In this document: positions 5,551 through 14,313 of the stretch, in pieces | Layout: the number at the start of each line of letters is the position of its first letter | Numbering within the stretch: the first letter of the stretch is position 1 | Origin: Lachnospiraceae bacterium | GTDB lineage: Bacteria > Bacillota > Clostridia > Lachnospirales > Lachnospiraceae | Length of the DNA stretch: 54,618 nt | Direction: 5' to 3' | Assembly: GCA_011959805.1 (NCBI GenBank) | Contig: BLMC01000014.1 | Coordinates: 1-54,618 of the forward strand | The notes under the pieces: model-generated | The model's database searches: none | Seen by the model: the letters and a program-made list of their open reading frames with translations, nothing else | Told to the model about the DNA's origin: nothing | Made by a program: the position numbers and the translations under genes

Positions 5551-6418
5551 ATCTTACTCTGCTACTAAAACATATACAAACATGTATATGCTAGATGATT
5601 TGTTACAATCTCACGATTTGTAATTACTGCTTCAACGTGTAAATTTGATTAAAGTTCAACTACTCACAGGTTCTTGTACACTCCACAGTCGTAAATTCCC
5701 GAATAAGCCATCGGTACCAATTCACAATCACTTACTAATGTGCGTTTGTGAATTTTCATCTAATTCGCTTTTCCTTTCCTAGATTTTTTATTTTGCCCTT
5801 ATTTTTGGGTCTTACCCACTAACCAATTGCACCTACAAAATTGCTGCATCTTTATTCTGTCAGACTGTTTTAACTAGTAATAATATCCTTTCCATGCCTT
5901 TGCCTGCTATAAAGTCAGCACAAACTATATCTTGTATTTTACATACTTTTGAGTCTATTTACTCACTTTTAATGCCAATTTTAATTCCTTAAATTTCCTC
6001 CTTTTCTATTATATAGACTCTTGGAGTCTTTTTGTGCCTGATATTGTGAGAAGATTTTTTGTCAGATGTGCACAAATTTATGAGGCGTACGTGGCACGTA
6101 CGTTGATTAAATTTATGTGCATATGACGGTAAATCTGCCACAATAGCAGGTGCAAGGGAGATTCCGAGAGGCTATTTATTTATTTCTATCGTATTTGAAG
6201 TAATATGACTTGATACTCTTATAAAGTATACACTTTTTTCTAGTTCTACGCAATCATTTTTGTATGGGTTTTATCTCAGTTTCATAAGAATAATCTTGTC
6301 CAAATTTTTGTCAAAGCAAGAATGTCATTCGCACTCTTTGCTTCGACATACAGCAAAATTAACTTTACTGGCACAAAACTAATTTGTACCCATGCAGTAA
6401 TAAACGAATTATATAACA
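5551..6418. other. Long intergenic region upstream of gpmI with several inverted repeats
   Basis: About 870 bases without a convincing gene. Inverted repeats seen: CATATAC/GTATATG (5571-5590, just before gpmI); AATTCACAA (5719-5727) with TTGTGAATT (5746-5754); AGACTC/GAGTCT followed by five T (6015-6033, plus strand, weak terminator); CGTACGT/ACGTACG (6086-6102) nested between GTGCACAAATTTA (6068-6080) and TAAATTTATGTGC (6108-6120). Read on the minus strand, the 5719-5754 hairpin follows an ATCTA/TAGAT hairpin and precedes GGTACCGATGG. The region could be a structured gpmI leader, but it matches no riboswitch class I know well. Some of it may be decayed sequence. Confidence 0.45.
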
Positions 6419-8988: not shown

Positions 8989-10230
8989 TTAATATTTATG
9001 TTCTTTATAAGATATATGATTCATTAAATTGCTAATAAGAGCATAGAACAAAACTGCAAAAATACTAGAAGTAAATGAATGTATAGAATGTCTCGACACA
9101 ATCATTACCCACAACACAGGATATATAGAAATAAAAACAAGTGGTATCGTTTTACTGCTTTTACAATTATATCGAACAGACAAAAAAATTAAAATTCCGA
9201 TAAAAATAAAAAATATAGGAAGTTTAATTTTCATTGGTGTTAAACACCTTATTAATTTTTCACCTAAAACATCAAGTCTATCTTGTATTCCCATATTTAT
9301 CCCAAACCACATTAATGCTTCTTCTGTTCCATCCTGTTTTCCGATTACAATTTTAGACAACAATTGTTTTAATATCATAGTGCAACCATACCCCATTATC
9401 CACCAGAATGTATTTAAAACAATCTGTCTCCATAACATGTTCTTATCGACATTTCTATTTTCTAACTGTATCCATAAGACAAGACACATTCCAACAGATA
9501 ACACAGGTGCTACTAAAGGCCCTACTGCATATATCATAGATCCCATAATCATAAATAACAGACTAACCCTATGTACGGTGTTCTTTATTTTATCAGAACA
9601 AATGTATGTCAATATAATCATAAACACAAGTGTAACAAGTATATCCCCAACAAAAGATAAACATATAGCATGTAGTTCTAATAAAGTCATCATAAAAGCC
9701 ACAATAAGGGGAAGGCACCCATAAACACCCTGAAATTTTGAAATACGATATATCAGAAAAAATAATAAGCCTGTTACAATCCAATAAATCAAAAAACGAA
9801 TCTCCGACAAAGACAAAAATGAAAAAAGAATCTTTAAAACGCCTACATTAATATTCCAATAGCGAGAATAATTTTGTTTCGGAGCACTATCTCGGTAATA
9901 AACTGCTGCAACAAGATTCGCCCAAGGAGCATCATTTCCCGAATAATACTCTAACTTAATTGCCTGTATAATAGGATTCTTTCCTGAAACTGTTACCATA
10001 TTAGCCCATATCATATCTGAATAGCTATCCCAGTATAAAGTATTTGTTTTATCAAAAATAGGGGTATCTGTTCCTTCTTGTACATCAACCCATATATCCA
10101 AAGATTTCTCAACATTCTTAACAATTGGAGCTGTTGGAATCAAGAAACAGCCTGACAAAAATAATAAATATATTATATTCAGTGCTATTAATATACCAAT
10201 TTTTTGAATTGCCCGTTTTACAATTTGCAT
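8989..10230 (-). CDS. Polytopic membrane protein of unknown function (possible GT-C-like glycosyltransferase)
   Basis: A 413-residue protein with about ten hydrophobic spans. After the first span comes an outside loop of about 115 residues with YWDSYSDMIWANMV and YSRYWNINVGVLKILFSFLS; further spans follow, ending near RHSIHSFTSSIFAVLFYAL. The overall plan (large loop after helix 1, then many spans) and the segments resembling YSRYWHGY-type motifs suggest the loosely defined membrane glycosyltransferase-like families, but I see no decisive catalytic motif. Codon use looks richer in A+T (many ATA) than the neighbours, which could indicate transfer. AAGGGGGACAT precedes the ATG. It is divergent from the peptide/ABC exporter unit. 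Confidence 0.6.
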   Translation of the reverse strand: MQIVKRAIQKIGILIALNIIYLLFLSGCFLIPTAPIVKNVEKSLDIWVDVQEGTDTPIFDKTNTLYWDSYSDMIWANMVTVSGKNPIIQAIKLEYYSGNDAPWANLVAAVYYRDSAPKQNYSRYWNINVGVLKILFSFLSLSEIRFLIYWIVTGLLFFLIYRISKFQGVYGCLPLIVAFMMTLLELHAICLSFVGDILVTLVFMIILTYICSDKIKNTVHRVSLLFMIMGSMIYAVGPLVAPVLSVGMCLVLWIQLENRNVDKNMLWRQIVLNTFWWIMGYGCTMILKQLLSKIVIGKQDGTEEALMWFGINMGIQDRLDVLGEKLIRCLTPMKIKLPIFFIFIGILIFLSVRYNCKSSKTIPLVFISIYPVLWVMIVSRHSIHSFTSSIFAVLFYALISNLMNHISYKEHKY

Positions 10231-10310
10231 ATATGTCCCCCTTAAAAGTTTTATATTGTAATTTTAAGCATACTCTATAGAAAAACATTTGTAAAGAAAC
10301 AAAATTTAAG

Positions 10311-10339
10311 TTGACATCCAACAAAAATAAGAGTATGGT
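10311..10339 (+). promoter_or_regulatory. Strong sigma-A promoter for the leader ORF and ABC exporter
   Basis: Perfect -35 TTGACA (10311-10316), a 17-base spacer and -10 TATGGT (10334-10339). The transcript would begin near 10346 and carry a hairpin in its 5' end (CATTTGTT at 10361-10368 with AACAAATG at 10378-10385) before the ribosome binding site of the 28-codon ORF. Confidence 0.75.
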
Positions 10340-10409
10340 TAATGAAGTAACCAATAATTGCATTTGTTGGAAAGAATAACAAATGTCAGACAAGAAAGGA
10401 GGTAATACA

Positions 10410-10496
10410 ATGTCTAAACAGTTTAGAAATGCAACAATAAATGAATCTATTATATGTTTCAATTGTAAAATTATCTCCGGGGTATTTTGTATTTGA
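10410..10496 (+). CDS. 28-codon leader peptide (putative attenuator ORF)
   Basis: A short ORF with a near-ideal ribosome binding site (AAGAAAGGAGGT, six bases before the ATG). The peptide begins MSKQFRNATINESIICFN and ends ISGVFCI, with three cysteines and a hydrophobic C-terminal half. It lies between a consensus promoter and an intrinsic terminator, 190 bases upstream of a heterodimeric ABC exporter. This matches the layout of bmrB-bmrCD in Bacillus subtilis, where translation of a small ORF controls read-through into a drug exporter. The end of the ORF (GGGGTATTT, 10479-10487) can pair with the left arm of the terminator (AAAGACCTC, 10529-10537; 8 of 9 positions counting one G-U), which would form an antiterminator. 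A bioactive or modified peptide exported by the ABC pair is an alternative. Confidence 0.6.
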   Translation: MSKQFRNATINESIICFNCKIISGVFCI

Positions 10497-10530
10497 TAAA
10501 AAGCGCGATACAATAAAACGCTATTATTAA

Positions 10531-10565
10531 AGACCTCATGGTAATTTTACCATGGGGTCTTTTTG
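10531..10565 (+). terminator. Intrinsic terminator / attenuator before the ABC exporter
   Basis: Left arm AGACCTCATGGTA (10531-10543), loop ATTT, right arm TACCATGGGGTCT (10548-10560) with one G-U pair, followed by TTTTT. It sits after the 28-codon ORF and before the first exporter gene. No strong second promoter is evident between it and the exporter start, so exporter expression may depend on read-through. Confidence 0.85.
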
Positions 10566-10683
10566 TACCTTTTAGCTATATTATACACCGGAATATTCTT
10601 AAAATTTGTAAGAAAATAACTTGTGGCTCTACATCGATTATTTTTCTACAATTATTTATAATTTGAGGAGGGAACAATCTTTT

Positions 10684-12423
10684 ATGCAAACAAGAAAGAA
10701 ACTATCCACTTACATCTGGGAGTACAAGTGGCACTACTTTTTTGCTGTCTTATCGCTATTGGCCAGTGTCTCTCTTGATATGCTTGCGCCAATGCTCACA
10801 ATGCATATTATTGATGATGTAATATTGGGCGGCAATTTGTCCATATTACCTTATTTACTTGGGGGAATCCTAATTGTTGGTGTGGGACGCTGTATTTTTC
10901 AATACACGAAAGAATATCTTTTTGATACAGTAGGCTCATCGATTGGATCAGATATGCGAAAAAATTTATTTGACCATATTCAAAGCCTAAGCAGCAACTT
11001 TTTTGACAAGACAAATACTGGAGAGCTCATGGCACGTGTAAAGGACGATATTGACAGAATATGGAACACTTTGTCCTATGTAAGTATGTTAATTATAGAA
11101 GTCATTTTTCATACTTGTGTAGTGCTTTTCTGTATGTATCGACTCCATGCGTCGCTCGCAATCATACCGACAATTGCTATGATTTTGTCCGCATTTATCG
11201 CGGTCAGTATGGAACGCCATCTTGGCTCTATCTACGAAGATATCAGTGAAGAAAATGCAATCCTTAATACTGTTGCAGAAGAAAATCTCGCTGGCGTGCG
11301 TACTGTAAAGGCGTTTGCGCGAGAAAAATTTGAAATTCAAAAATTCTTGTCACATAATCAACGTTACTATGAACTAAACATGAAACAGTCAAAAGTGTTT
11401 GTTCGCTATTATCCATACTTACAGATTATTTCAAAGCTATTGCCCATGATTATCCTTCTACTTGGCGGGCGCCTTGTAATTCAAGGAACGATTACGCTTG
11501 GTGTACTTGGCGCTTTTCTTGAATACTCCAACAACATTGTATGGCCTATGGAAATGCTTGGCTGGCTATCAAACGACTTTTCGGCGGGCATTGCTTCCAA
11601 CAAGAAACTTGCTAAAATATATGAACAAATGCCTGTCATTAGAGAAATAGAAAATCCAGTAAACTTAGATAATGTTCAAGGTAAAATTGAATTTTCGCAT
11701 GTTTCTTTTCACAAAGAAGATCAACATGAAATTTTGCACGATATTACATTCCAAGCAGAAGCAGGTTCTACAATCGGCATTATGGGCGCTACCGGTGCTG
11801 GAAAAACGTCTGTAATTCAACTGCTACAAAGACAATATGACGCCACTGATGGCTGTATTCGCCTTGATGGTATTGACATTAGAGAACTATCCTTAAAACA
11901 ACTTCGGAGTAGCATTTCCGTTGTTATGCAAGACGTATTTCTGTTCTCTGACACCATCAACGAGAATGTAAAACTTGGAAAAAAGGAATATATAGATGAA
12001 GCCATTGTTCGCAAAGCTTCCAGAGATGCGCAGGCAAGCAGCTTTATTGAAAAGATGCCTGACGAATATGAAACCATTATTGGGGAACGTGGCGTTGGAC
12101 TTTCTGGAGGACAGAAACAACGCATTAGTATTGCAAGAGCTTTTGCAAAACATACCCCTATTTTAATTATGGATGATTCCACATCTGCATTGGATATGGA
12201 AACAGAACACGAAATTCAAAAAACGTTAAACGCGCTGCCAAACACCACAAAATTGATAATCGCACACCGCATTAGTGCTGTGCGCCACGCAGATGAAATC
12301 CTTGTACTTGAAAATGGCTCCATTGCAGAGCGCGGAACACATGACGAACTTCTAGCCCAAAAAGGCTTATACTATACCACTTATGTATCGCAGTATGGAG
12401 AACCTATGCATTCTGCATCATAG
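10684..12423 (+). CDS. ABC exporter half-transporter 1 (BmrC-like, degenerate catalytic site)
   Basis: A 579-residue half-transporter: six-span membrane domain to about residue 310, then a nucleotide-binding domain. Walker A GATGAGKT (368-375), signature LSGGQ (473-477), Walker B ILIMD (493-497) and H-loop IAHR (H528) are visible. The residue after Walker B, normally the catalytic glutamate, is aspartate (D498, in MDDSTSALD). That is the hallmark of the subunit carrying the degenerate site in heterodimeric exporters such as BmrCD, LmrCD and TM287/288. I chose the ATG at 10684 because GAGGAGGG lies 11 bases upstream; an upstream TTG in frame has no such signal. It probably exports drugs or a peptide together with the next gene. 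Confidence 0.9.
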   Translation: MQTRKKLSTYIWEYKWHYFFAVLSLLASVSLDMLAPMLTMHIIDDVILGGNLSILPYLLGGILIVGVGRCIFQYTKEYLFDTVGSSIGSDMRKNLFDHIQSLSSNFFDKTNTGELMARVKDDIDRIWNTLSYVSMLIIEVIFHTCVVLFCMYRLHASLAIIPTIAMILSAFIAVSMERHLGSIYEDISEENAILNTVAEENLAGVRTVKAFAREKFEIQKFLSHNQRYYELNMKQSKVFVRYYPYLQIISKLLPMIILLLGGRLVIQGTITLGVLGAFLEYSNNIVWPMEMLGWLSNDFSAGIASNKKLAKIYEQMPVIREIENPVNLDNVQGKIEFSHVSFHKEDQHEILHDITFQAEAGSTIGIMGATGAGKTSVIQLLQRQYDATDGCIRLDGIDIRELSLKQLRSSISVVMQDVFLFSDTINENVKLGKKEYIDEAIVRKASRDAQASSFIEKMPDEYETIIGERGVGLSGGQKQRISIARAFAKHTPILIMDDSTSALDMETEHEIQKTLNALPNTTKLIIAHRISAVRHADEILVLENGSIAERGTHDELLAQKGLYYTTYVSQYGEPMHSAS

Positions 12424-12534: not shown

Positions 12535-14313
12535 ATGGCAGTAAATTCCTATAAGGAAGACGAAAACCTAAATGAAGTGAGCAAACTTAAGACTTTGGGC
12601 AGACTGTTCTCCTACTTGCTCTCGCACAAAGCTTCCATTTTTGTAGTGCTACTAATTATGGCGTATTGTGTGTGTGTAAGTTTGATAAACCCACTCATCA
12701 TAGAATCTGCGATTGACAAACATATTTCAACTGGTGATTATATTGGTTTGTATCGCCTTGTTGTAATAGCACTTATATTAAACGCAATTCTTATTATTTT
12801 GGTAAAAGCACGCATGTATATCATGGCAAAAGTATGTAATAAAGTGTTGGTTACAATCCGTCAGCAACTTTATACACACATACAGACTCTTGACTTTAAA
12901 TTTTTTGATAGTAGACCCACTGGAAAAATACTTGCACGCATTATTGGTGATATCAATTCCCTAAAAGATGTACTTTCCAACAGTGTCACAACCCTAATAC
13001 CAGATTTTATTACAATCTGCGCAGTTGTTGGAATTATGTTTGTCCGAAATGCAAAGCTTGCTGCCGCTGCACTAATCAGCATTCCTTTAATGATTATGGG
13101 CATGTTATTTATACAGATACGCTCACATAAACGCTGGCAAATTTTTCGGAAAAAGTCTTCCAACCTCAACGCCTTTGTCCATGAAGACTTATCAGGTATC
13201 CGAATTATACAAAGTTTTACTGCGGAAAACGAAACCAAAGAAACCTTTCGTACGCTGGTTAATGAACACCAACGCTCCTTTATGAATGCAGTGCTCTACG
13301 CAGATGCATTTGGCTCTGTCATTGATTTCTGTTGGGGACTTGGCAATGTATCTCTCTGGTTTACAGGAATTATGATTCTTGGATTAGATACTGTATCTGT
13401 TGGTACACTTGTCGCATTTGGAACTTATATTTCTATGTTCTGGCAACCCATTATGAACCTTAGTAACTTTTACAACCAACTTATTACAAATATTTCTGGG
13501 GCAGAACGAATCTTTGAAATACTGGATACAAACGCAGAAATTGTTGACGCAAAGAATGTGACACAAATGCCTGCAATAATTGGAGCCGTTGACTTTGAGC
13601 ATGTTTGTTTCTCCTATGAGGAAGGAACAAACGTTTTGAACAATGTTAGTTTTCATATCAATCCCGGTGAAACAATTGCCCTTGTCGGACCTACAGGTGC
13701 TGGAAAAACGACGATTGTAAACTTAATTAGCCGTTTTTATGATATCCAAAAAGGAACTATAAAAATTGATGGACACGATATTAAAAGTGTCAGCATTGAA
13801 AGTCTACGACACCAGATGGGAATTATGACACAAGATAATTTCCTGTTTACAGGTACAATTCGTGAAAATATTGCCTATGGAAAACTAGATGCCACGGACG
13901 AAGAAATCATTGCCGCTGCAAAAGCAGTCCATGCACATGATTTCATCACAAAACTGCCCGATGGTTATGACACAAAACTTGAAGAACGTGGCGGTGGCCT
14001 TTCCGTCGGACAAAAGCAACTTCTTGCATTTGCAAGGACTATGGTCAGTATGCCAAAAATCCTAATTTTGGACGAAGCGACATCAAGCATTGACACTAAG
14101 ACAGAACTAATGGTTCAAGATGGCATTGAAGCCTTGTTAAAAGGACGTACTTCCTTTGTCATTGCACATCGTCTCTCTACAATTCAGAAGGCAGACCGCA
14201 TCTTTGTCATTGACAATGGCGGTATTGTAGAAGAAGGCAACGCAATAGAATTAATGGCAAAGCAAGGAGCTTATTACAGACTCTACACAGCACAGTTGCA
14301 AGATGTTGTATAA
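12535..14313 (+). CDS. ABC exporter half-transporter 2 (BmrD-like, catalytic subunit)
   Basis: A 592-residue half-transporter: cytoplasmic N-terminus, six-span domain to about 325 and nucleotide-binding domain. Walker A GPTGAGKT (385-392), Walker B ILILD followed by the catalytic E514, and H-loop H545 are intact. The signature is LSVGQ (489-493) instead of LSGGQ. Together with partner 1 (aspartate for glutamate, but a perfect LSGGQ) this gives one consensus and one degenerate ATP site, as in known heterodimers. The ATG at 12535 is preceded by AAAGGGGAG; the frame is open further upstream to 12439, but that part overlaps a dispersed repeat. The gap of about 110 bases after gene 1 holds that repeat. 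Confidence 0.92.
   Translation: MAVNSYKEDENLNEVSKLKTLGRLFSYLLSHKASIFVVLLIMAYCVCVSLINPLIIESAIDKHISTGDYIGLYRLVVIALILNAILIILVKARMYIMAKVCNKVLVTIRQQLYTHIQTLDFKFFDSRPTGKILARIIGDINSLKDVLSNSVTTLIPDFITICAVVGIMFVRNAKLAAAALISIPLMIMGMLFIQIRSHKRWQIFRKKSSNLNAFVHEDLSGIRIIQSFTAENETKETFRTLVNEHQRSFMNAVLYADAFGSVIDFCWGLGNVSLWFTGIMILGLDTVSVGTLVAFGTYISMFWQPIMNLSNFYNQLITNISGAERIFEILDTNAEIVDAKNVTQMPAIIGAVDFEHVCFSYEEGTNVLNNVSFHINPGETIALVGPTGAGKTTIVNLISRFYDIQKGTIKIDGHDIKSVSIESLRHQMGIMTQDNFLFTGTIRENIAYGKLDATDEEIIAAAKAVHAHDFITKLPDGYDTKLEERGGGLSVGQKQLLAFARTMVSMPKILILDEATSSIDTKTELMVQDGIEALLKGRTSFVIAHRLSTIQKADRIFVIDNGGIVEEGNAIELMAKQGAYYRLYTAQLQDVV

Follow-up and report, generated by a model that had tools for sequence, protein, structure and literature searches.

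Ribosome-mediated transcription attenuation is a known mode of control, with bmrB, vmlR and cplR as the described examples closest to the locus considered here. In the bmrB-bmrCD system of Bacillus subtilis, a 53-codon leader ORF that contains the terminator stands, together with an antiterminator, ahead of a heterodimeric multidrug ABC exporter; ribosome inhibitors induce the system and translation of the leader is required (PMC4191407, in the portion available). The available text on vmlR of B. subtilis describes an anti-antiterminator, antiterminator and terminator, a three-codon uORF that lies within the first helix with its Shine-Dalgarno sequence (SD) single-stranded ahead of that helix, a stalled uORF ribosome that blocks the first helix and, in read-through RNA, a pairing behind the terminator (PMC9226507). 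The cplR and lmo0919 (VgaL) leaders have a three-codon uORF, an antiterminator and a terminator that sequesters the SD of the main gene, and an anti-SD element is named in a figure legend of the part of the report at hand (PMC10201436). Finally, rli80-hflXr of Listeria combines anti-antiterminator, antiterminator and terminator with a 14-codon ORF that carries an RLR arrest motif, and is induced by lincomycin and erythromycin (PMC6310831, as far as its accessible text goes). A 2010 survey of premature terminators also predicted ABC-leaders before ABC transporters, one of them before a multidrug export operon of lactobacilli; a Lachnospiraceae exporter leader was not found in the survey text that was available (PMC2965389).

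The window analysed here, 54,618 nucleotides of contig BLMC01000014.1 from a Lachnospiraceae bacterium, carries a leader that shares parts with these systems; in it, a translatable ORF with an SD precedes an intrinsic terminator, an alternative antiterminator and a pair of ABC exporter genes. Since a leader ORF with a strong SD is conserved along with the exporter, as are a terminator and an antiterminator that exclude one another, bmrB-like logic is the best reading, and the mechanism class that the first-pass annotation had drawn from bmrB is thus well supported; the helix that we regard as the key one, between the leader's own SD and an anti-SD inside the ORF, was nevertheless absent from that annotation. 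Unlike bmrB, where the terminator is within the ORF, the window ORF stops at 10496 and the hairpin starts at 10531, so we class the leader as working like bmrB and not as a bmrB-type member. The two are further set apart, by description, in that the SD is a competing strand here and the bmrB text available to us mentions no leader SD as strand 1 (PMC4191407). Compared with vmlR, the SD is itself a strand, with its partner about 60 nt on in a 28-codon ORF, instead of an approximately three-codon uORF inside the first helix (PMC9226507, in part); the same difference in length separates it, again by description, from cplR and lmo0919 (PMC10201436, in part). As for rli80-hflXr, the RLR motif is not a conserved feature of the leader peptides listed in our comparison (PMC6310831, in part). 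In the accessible portions of the bmrB, vmlR, cplR, hflXr and 2010-survey literature we found no leader described whose own SD serves as strand 1 and pairs with an anti-SD of the coding region as strand 2, although so limited a body of text is no proof of absence. We accordingly class the attenuation logic as known and the self-SD architecture as new with respect to those texts.

The features of the leader and the exporter all lie on the + strand. A promoter of the form TTGACA-17-TATGGT, as first annotated, is present at 10311-10339, and its −35, −10 and most of its spacer are kept across 12 aligned loci of the same genus; transcription is expected, from the promoter position, to start near 10346. 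A promoter scan gave 31 sites against 20.5 ± 4.0 in shuffles, and hence a promoter match by itself means little. Within the spacer, 10318-10333, chiefly AAATAAGAG ahead of the −10, conservation in the 12 loci almost matches that of the hexamers. Folding and alignment place a 5' hairpin (GCAUUUGUU...AACAAAUGC) at 10360-10386, absent from L010 and L011. The near-perfect ribosome binding site, GAAAGGAGGTAAT, is likewise present and supplies strand 1, SD1 (GGAGGUAAU, 10398-10406), whose partner is 10470-10478. The predicted 28-codon ORF (MSKQFRNATINESIICFNCKIISGVFCI, 10410-10496) is confirmed, with codons at 10410-10493 and TGA at 10494-10496. Strand 2, which we call E, is the anti-SD and antiterminator strand within the ORF (10465-10483); 10470-10478 pairs with SD1, and 10465-10475 plus 10479-10483 pair with strand 3, the left arm and loop of the terminator (10533-10550). 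The intrinsic terminator itself (10531-10564) consists of a hairpin of strands 3:4 (10531-10560) followed by a T-run, and is as strong as had been proposed: 10500-10570 has a folding energy of −25.1 kcal/mol (z −6.1; 0/200 shuffles as stable), and 10345-10570, whose fold contains the SD1:E helix, one of −55.1 kcal/mol (z −4.8; 0/200 shuffles as stable). A simple terminator scan did not list the hairpin 10531-10560. No + strand site between 10566 and 10684 reached the cut-off in a consensus promoter scan, in keeping with the first-pass annotation. The exporter SD (SD2) is at 10665-10672. When the whole window was scanned with Rfam 15, no family reached its gathering score within 10290-10700; there were eight weak matches, the best at 23.2 bits against a threshold of 59.

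The two ABC half-transporters downstream (10684-12423 and 12535-14313; searches with the second were taken from 12529) have Walker B motifs ending in MDD and LDE, respectively; the MDD of the first is the form expected of the degenerate subunit in heterodimeric ABC exporters. Bacterial matches of the two subunits include BmrC/BmrD (YheI/YheH) chains, and judging from sequence the exporter is a probable drug-export pump. On the other side of the leader, 8989-10230 of the − strand encodes a divergent 413-residue probable membrane protein with no Pfam or NCBIfam match; in relatives, at loci L002-L012, its gene was not found next to the leader.

We favor the possibility, to which we give a probability of roughly 0.77, that the leader attenuates transcription in response to ribosomes by means of RNA strands that pair in alternation, the leader's own SD being strand 1, and that the position of a stalled ribosome switches the exporter. 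Comparison and folding support SD1:E, E:strand 3 and 3:4 as alternatives. If no ribosome is on the leader, SD1:E would form, the terminator would follow and the exporter would be off. In normal growth ribosomes would reach the stop codon, about 14 nt past E, and mask E, again with termination and the exporter off. An inhibitor that holds a ribosome at or shortly past the start codon (over about the first dozen codons, as estimated from a ribosome footprint) would, in contrast, leave SD1 unable to hold E; the freed E would then capture strand 3 as it emerges, the terminator would fail and the exporter genes would be transcribed. The signal would be where the ribosome is and not which peptide it has made. 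By analogy with trp, bmrB and vmlR, we infer that in the cell the block is a ribosome stalled by a drug, and that E is masked by ribosomes completing the ORF; induction of the exporter by drugs is likewise suggested by analogy. Consistent with this idea, mutation of the bmrB start codon gives a low level and no induction (PMC4191407, in the portion available), which is the outcome that the self-SD logic predicts.

Evidence for the first helix comes from a comparison of 51 exporter upstream regions. Our rules identified no leader in L089 and L123, which abut contig edges, or in L130, which retains a terminator but has lost the leader. They identified no terminator in L093, L102, L103 and L127, the SD1:E pair being visible nonetheless in L093 and L102. 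After L087 (leader not seen) and L114 (a near copy of L113) were dropped, 42 loci entered the SD1:E test; L101 had no terminator in a second scan, leaving 41 for the E:strand 3 test. An earlier choice of leaders by pairing energy was circular for counting, and the analysis was repeated with the ORF picked by SD strength alone (15-64 codons allowed) and SD1 then paired to the ORF interior; relatives with a leader have 24-54 codons. The duplex of SD1 with its ORF beat dinucleotide shuffles at p≤0.05 in 37/42 loci and at p≤0.01 in 27/42, the five failures being L122, L131, L085, L095 and L097, and it did so at p≤0.05 in 21 of the 24 testable loci from other genera. Cognate SD1:E pairs scored −12.5 kcal/mol versus −10.3 for swapped ones (permutation p 5e-5 over 28 representatives, related loci not being independent samples). 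The pair occurs as GGAGGUAA:UUACCUCC, AGAGGUAA:UUACCUCU and GGAGGCAGA:UCUGCCUC, among other versions. In an anchored count of 39 of the 44 leaders, with the register set for maximal pairing, six central positions formed standard pairs in 39/39, and paired changes went from U-A to C-G in 7 and from A-U to G-C in 7. The 3' end of the anti-SD lies 8-27 nt 5' of the stop codon in 41/42 loci (102 nt in L084). From these sequence comparisons, the key competing helix appears to be leader SD with anti-SD in the ORF, covarying across leaders.

The antiterminator, E:strand 3, is in the window a duplex of 11 pairs, an internal loop and 5 pairs (−16.5 kcal/mol, shuffle p 0.025). Its main 11 pairs, GUAAAAUUAUC (10465-10475) with GGUAAUUUUAC (10540-10550), had been missed by the first-pass annotation, whose first pairing, GGGGTATTT:AAAGACCTC, nevertheless caught GGGGU:ACCUC, the outer 5 of the 16 pairs, which are present in near relatives. 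The proposed exclusivity of terminator and antiterminator stands, conserved and with covariation, although the antiterminator is longer than, and mostly different from, the one originally drawn. By locus, E:strand 3 reached p≤0.05 in 15/18 of the same genus, in 10/14 at 59-75% exporter identity and in 4/9 below that; permutation gave p 5e-5 (n=19) and 0.0064 (n=9), with the caveat that related loci are not independent samples. The first ten positions were standard-paired in 23-31 of the 31 loci of an anchored count (L095 skipped, register maximising pairing), and most of these positions showed several types of pair. The second pairing first proposed, TTTTGTAT:ATACAATAA, can be found in the sequence, but such a duplex of ORF tail and spacer reached p≤0.05 in only 1/17 same-genus loci (window p 0.13). 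A comparison of relatives had been suggested for both of the original helices and the peptide; it bore out the ORF, SD1:E and E:strand 3 as conserved and covarying, but left the second helix at chance level and the peptide confined to near relatives.

Folding of the nascent RNA up to the terminator loop, with or without a ribosome-sized block on SD1 and the start codon, indicates that SD1:E overlaps the antiterminator and can be blocked by a leader ribosome. In the window the block reduced the expected SD1:E pairs from 8.5 to 0 and raised those of E:strand 3 from 1.5 to 16.4. Among the 34 of the 41 loci that were folded, the block raised E:strand 3 pairs in 28, and the blocked value exceeded 4 pairs in all 34; unblocked SD1:E exceeded 4 pairs in 25/34 and was not the favoured nascent state without a ribosome in 9/34. 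Against shuffles of the ORF interior, the real sequence won at p≤0.05 in 11/20 loci for 2:3 and 12/20 for 1:2, so folding alone is weaker evidence than covariation. Another scheme could be drawn from the first helix, in which E just sequesters the leader SD in an autoregulation of leader translation that senses no drug, and read-through tracks general translation or growth rate. SD1:E is indeed the best supported helix and is found also before RsgA-like genes (see below), where E:strand 3 is singly weak; under such a scheme, however, the covariation of E:strand 3 in exporter leaders would be without use, and we regard it as very unlikely.

The clearest evidence that the constraint is on RNA pairing comes from the reading of E in three frames within unlike peptides. 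Leaders of other genera encode unrelated peptides, yet the anti-SD recurs at the ORF end, where it is translated as I-T-S, as V-C-L or S-C-L, or as L-P-P or L-P-S. The conserved feature, by this comparison, would be the RNA pairings, with the peptide kept only among near relatives, which argues that drug sensing should lie in the position of the stalled ribosome and not in a special arrest peptide. We did weigh an arrest of the ErmC or MsrD kind, in which the nascent tail KIISGVxCI, on binding a drug or metabolite within the exit tunnel, would halt the ribosome close to the stop codon, since the K-I-I-S-G tail and the final I are invariant in 11 near relatives. However, (i) codons 20-24 (AAA ATT ATC TCC GGG) are identical in the 12 main-group leaders, silent sites included, while codons 2-19 vary; (ii) codon 19 changes in its first base and amino acid and keeps its last two bases; (iii) peptides of other genera are unrelated, with E in three frames; and (iv) stalling at the tail would place the ribosome over E and promote termination. 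Arrest by a specific peptide is therefore quite unlikely, the peptide was rejected as the sensor, and no conserved stalling peptide of the Erm, MsrD or RLR type was found in the leader. L114, a near-duplicate outside the 12-leader count, differs at a silent position of codon 22. What the ribosome-position reading suggests is that stalling can be sensed without an arrest peptide, the SD itself being the switch strand and its partner usable in three reading frames.

The leader ORF and its alternative helices are kept in relatives that have the exporter. A search with the leader peptide in 60 genomes, the window's own included, placed 11 relatives directly 5' of an exporter ortholog, down to E 0.045; L026 (E 0.0079) and the remaining fetched matches were not in front of an exporter. 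An exporter ortholog was present at E≤1e-180 in 22 of 38 genomes of the genus, and GTAAAATTATYTCCGGGGYAT DNA (≤2 mismatches) in 15/38, the same 15 whose exporter identity is at least 90% (own genome included). The other 7 exporters of the genus (78-82% identity) comprise, as judged by eye, 6 with changed leaders, among them L127, which is truncated by a contig edge, and L130. This last locus has lost the leader and retained promoter-like sequence and a terminator; its exporter may be permanently low or based on read-through. Across 84,980 species genomes, GTAAAATTATYTCCGGGG occurred in 32 records, 14 of them a leader before the exporter and 18 other sequence, and it had no occurrence in viral contigs; among named records, the leader is shared by metagenome assemblies of Lachnospiraceae and by a cultured commensal, Lachnospiraceae bacterium A4. 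Four of the 18 unrelated records (L051, L052, L080, L082) resemble HIT genes in their motifs. An origin of the CxxCKIISG string from HIT/HinT was discarded as coincidence, leader relatives being mostly without cysteines and the conservation being at the DNA level. Further afield, the exporter was found at E≤1e-180 in 37/200 genomes of the family (7 of these matches were left out of the upstream comparison) and at E≤1e-170 in 3/196 genomes drawn from the class, all three Lachnospiraceae. The E string failed as a wider element of the order: at ≤1 mismatch it was in 5/392 genomes, as the own leader and 4 times in unrelated sequence. Five loci with exporter identity of 53-58% (L104, L105, L107, L110, L112) have GGAGGCAG as SD and CUGCC as its partner; some of them carry a second hairpin, and their 2:3 pairing extends into the terminator loop.

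Behind the terminator there is a possible fifth strand, D (AUACACCGGA, 10583-10592), which may pair with the 3' half of E (10476-10485; 9 pairs and 1 mismatch). D ends 20-41 nt 5' of the exporter start in 15/18 same-genus loci and 90 nt in the window. Cognate E:D pairs beat swapped ones (permutation p 5e-5 in 17 same-genus loci and 0.0028 in 23 others, related loci not being independent), the striking single cases being L108 (−34.8 kcal/mol), L106 and L100; singly, E:D reached p≤0.05 in 7/18 and 7/23 loci, respectively, with p 0.16 in the window. Our guess is that D would keep the anti-SD E off other SDs in read-through RNA. D was rejected as an opener of the exporter SD, whose predicted openness is the same whether the leader is free or stalled (means of 0.51 and 0.52). 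One could propose that control is mainly at the level of translation, with D or the exporter SD as the site by which E, as an anti-SD, works on the exporter message, and with the terminator as no more than a leaky barrier. The preference for cognate E:D would fit, and in vmlR and cplR attenuation does operate on translation as well as on transcription (PMC9226507 and PMC10201436, in the portions available), but single-locus significance is confined to the minority of loci given above and does not extend to the window, the openness of the exporter SD is constant, and the pairing of E with strand 3 has no need of such a role. We hold translation-level control to be unlikely as the main mechanism and continue with attenuation of transcription.

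The SD1:E design is, by sequence, not limited to exporters, as it seems to recur before genes for RsgA-like GTPases in some other genera. One pattern match, L140, has it before such a gene (TIGR00157, 148 bits versus a cut-off of 100). Among 120 genomes there are 19 RsgA-like orthologs; the GTPase motif allowed 15 to be placed, and such a leader with a terminator precedes 6 of the 15 (L155, L156, L158, L160, L163 and L164, all, like L140, in other Lachnospiraceae genera). For this set together with L151, a new leader of the same design found through a covariance model, 1:2 reached p≤0.05 in 8/8, a biased count as the leaders were chosen by eye with the pairing in view, and 2:3 in only 1/8. The block raised 2:3 pairing in 7/8; in the exception, L158, the choice of hairpin is probably wrong. 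A tentative extension of our model, and one that we think is somewhat more likely to be wrong than right, is that the leader serves Lachnospiraceae as a portable switch for translation stress, in which an occupied start and a free end would report early-elongation arrest on any peptide, with a small regulon made up of the exporter and, in some other genera, the RsgA-like GTPase as a drug-induced ribosome factor, of a kind that resistance proteins are not yet known to include, and with the fifth strand coupling E to expression of the exporter message. The leader is a defined and testable candidate for a family-wide sensor with which common gut bacteria would detect ribosome inhibitors, and the RsgA-like GTPase is flagged as a candidate stress-induced ribosome factor.

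With regard to finding further leaders, a plain SD...anti-SD pattern proved unspecific, giving 8 matches in 8/150 genomes versus 21 matches of the reversed control in 16; three of the 8 were known exporter leaders (G461, G513, G498) and one, L140, was new. A looser pattern, applied to the own genome, returned the own leader and one palindromic match within a longer reading frame. The covariance model R1, which failed to find other exporter leaders, was built on alignment A5, whose divergent rows do not keep the register; for the latter reason the MAFFT alignments A3-A5 were kept out of the covariation counts. In 120 genomes R1 found 11 sequences: the own leader, 5 known exporter leaders, 4 chance-like matches (L149, L152, L153, L154) and L151. 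Elsewhere in the window, the − strand at 5624-5689 carries a RAGATH-18 RNA, which scored 51.5 bits against an Rfam gathering score of 44.9.
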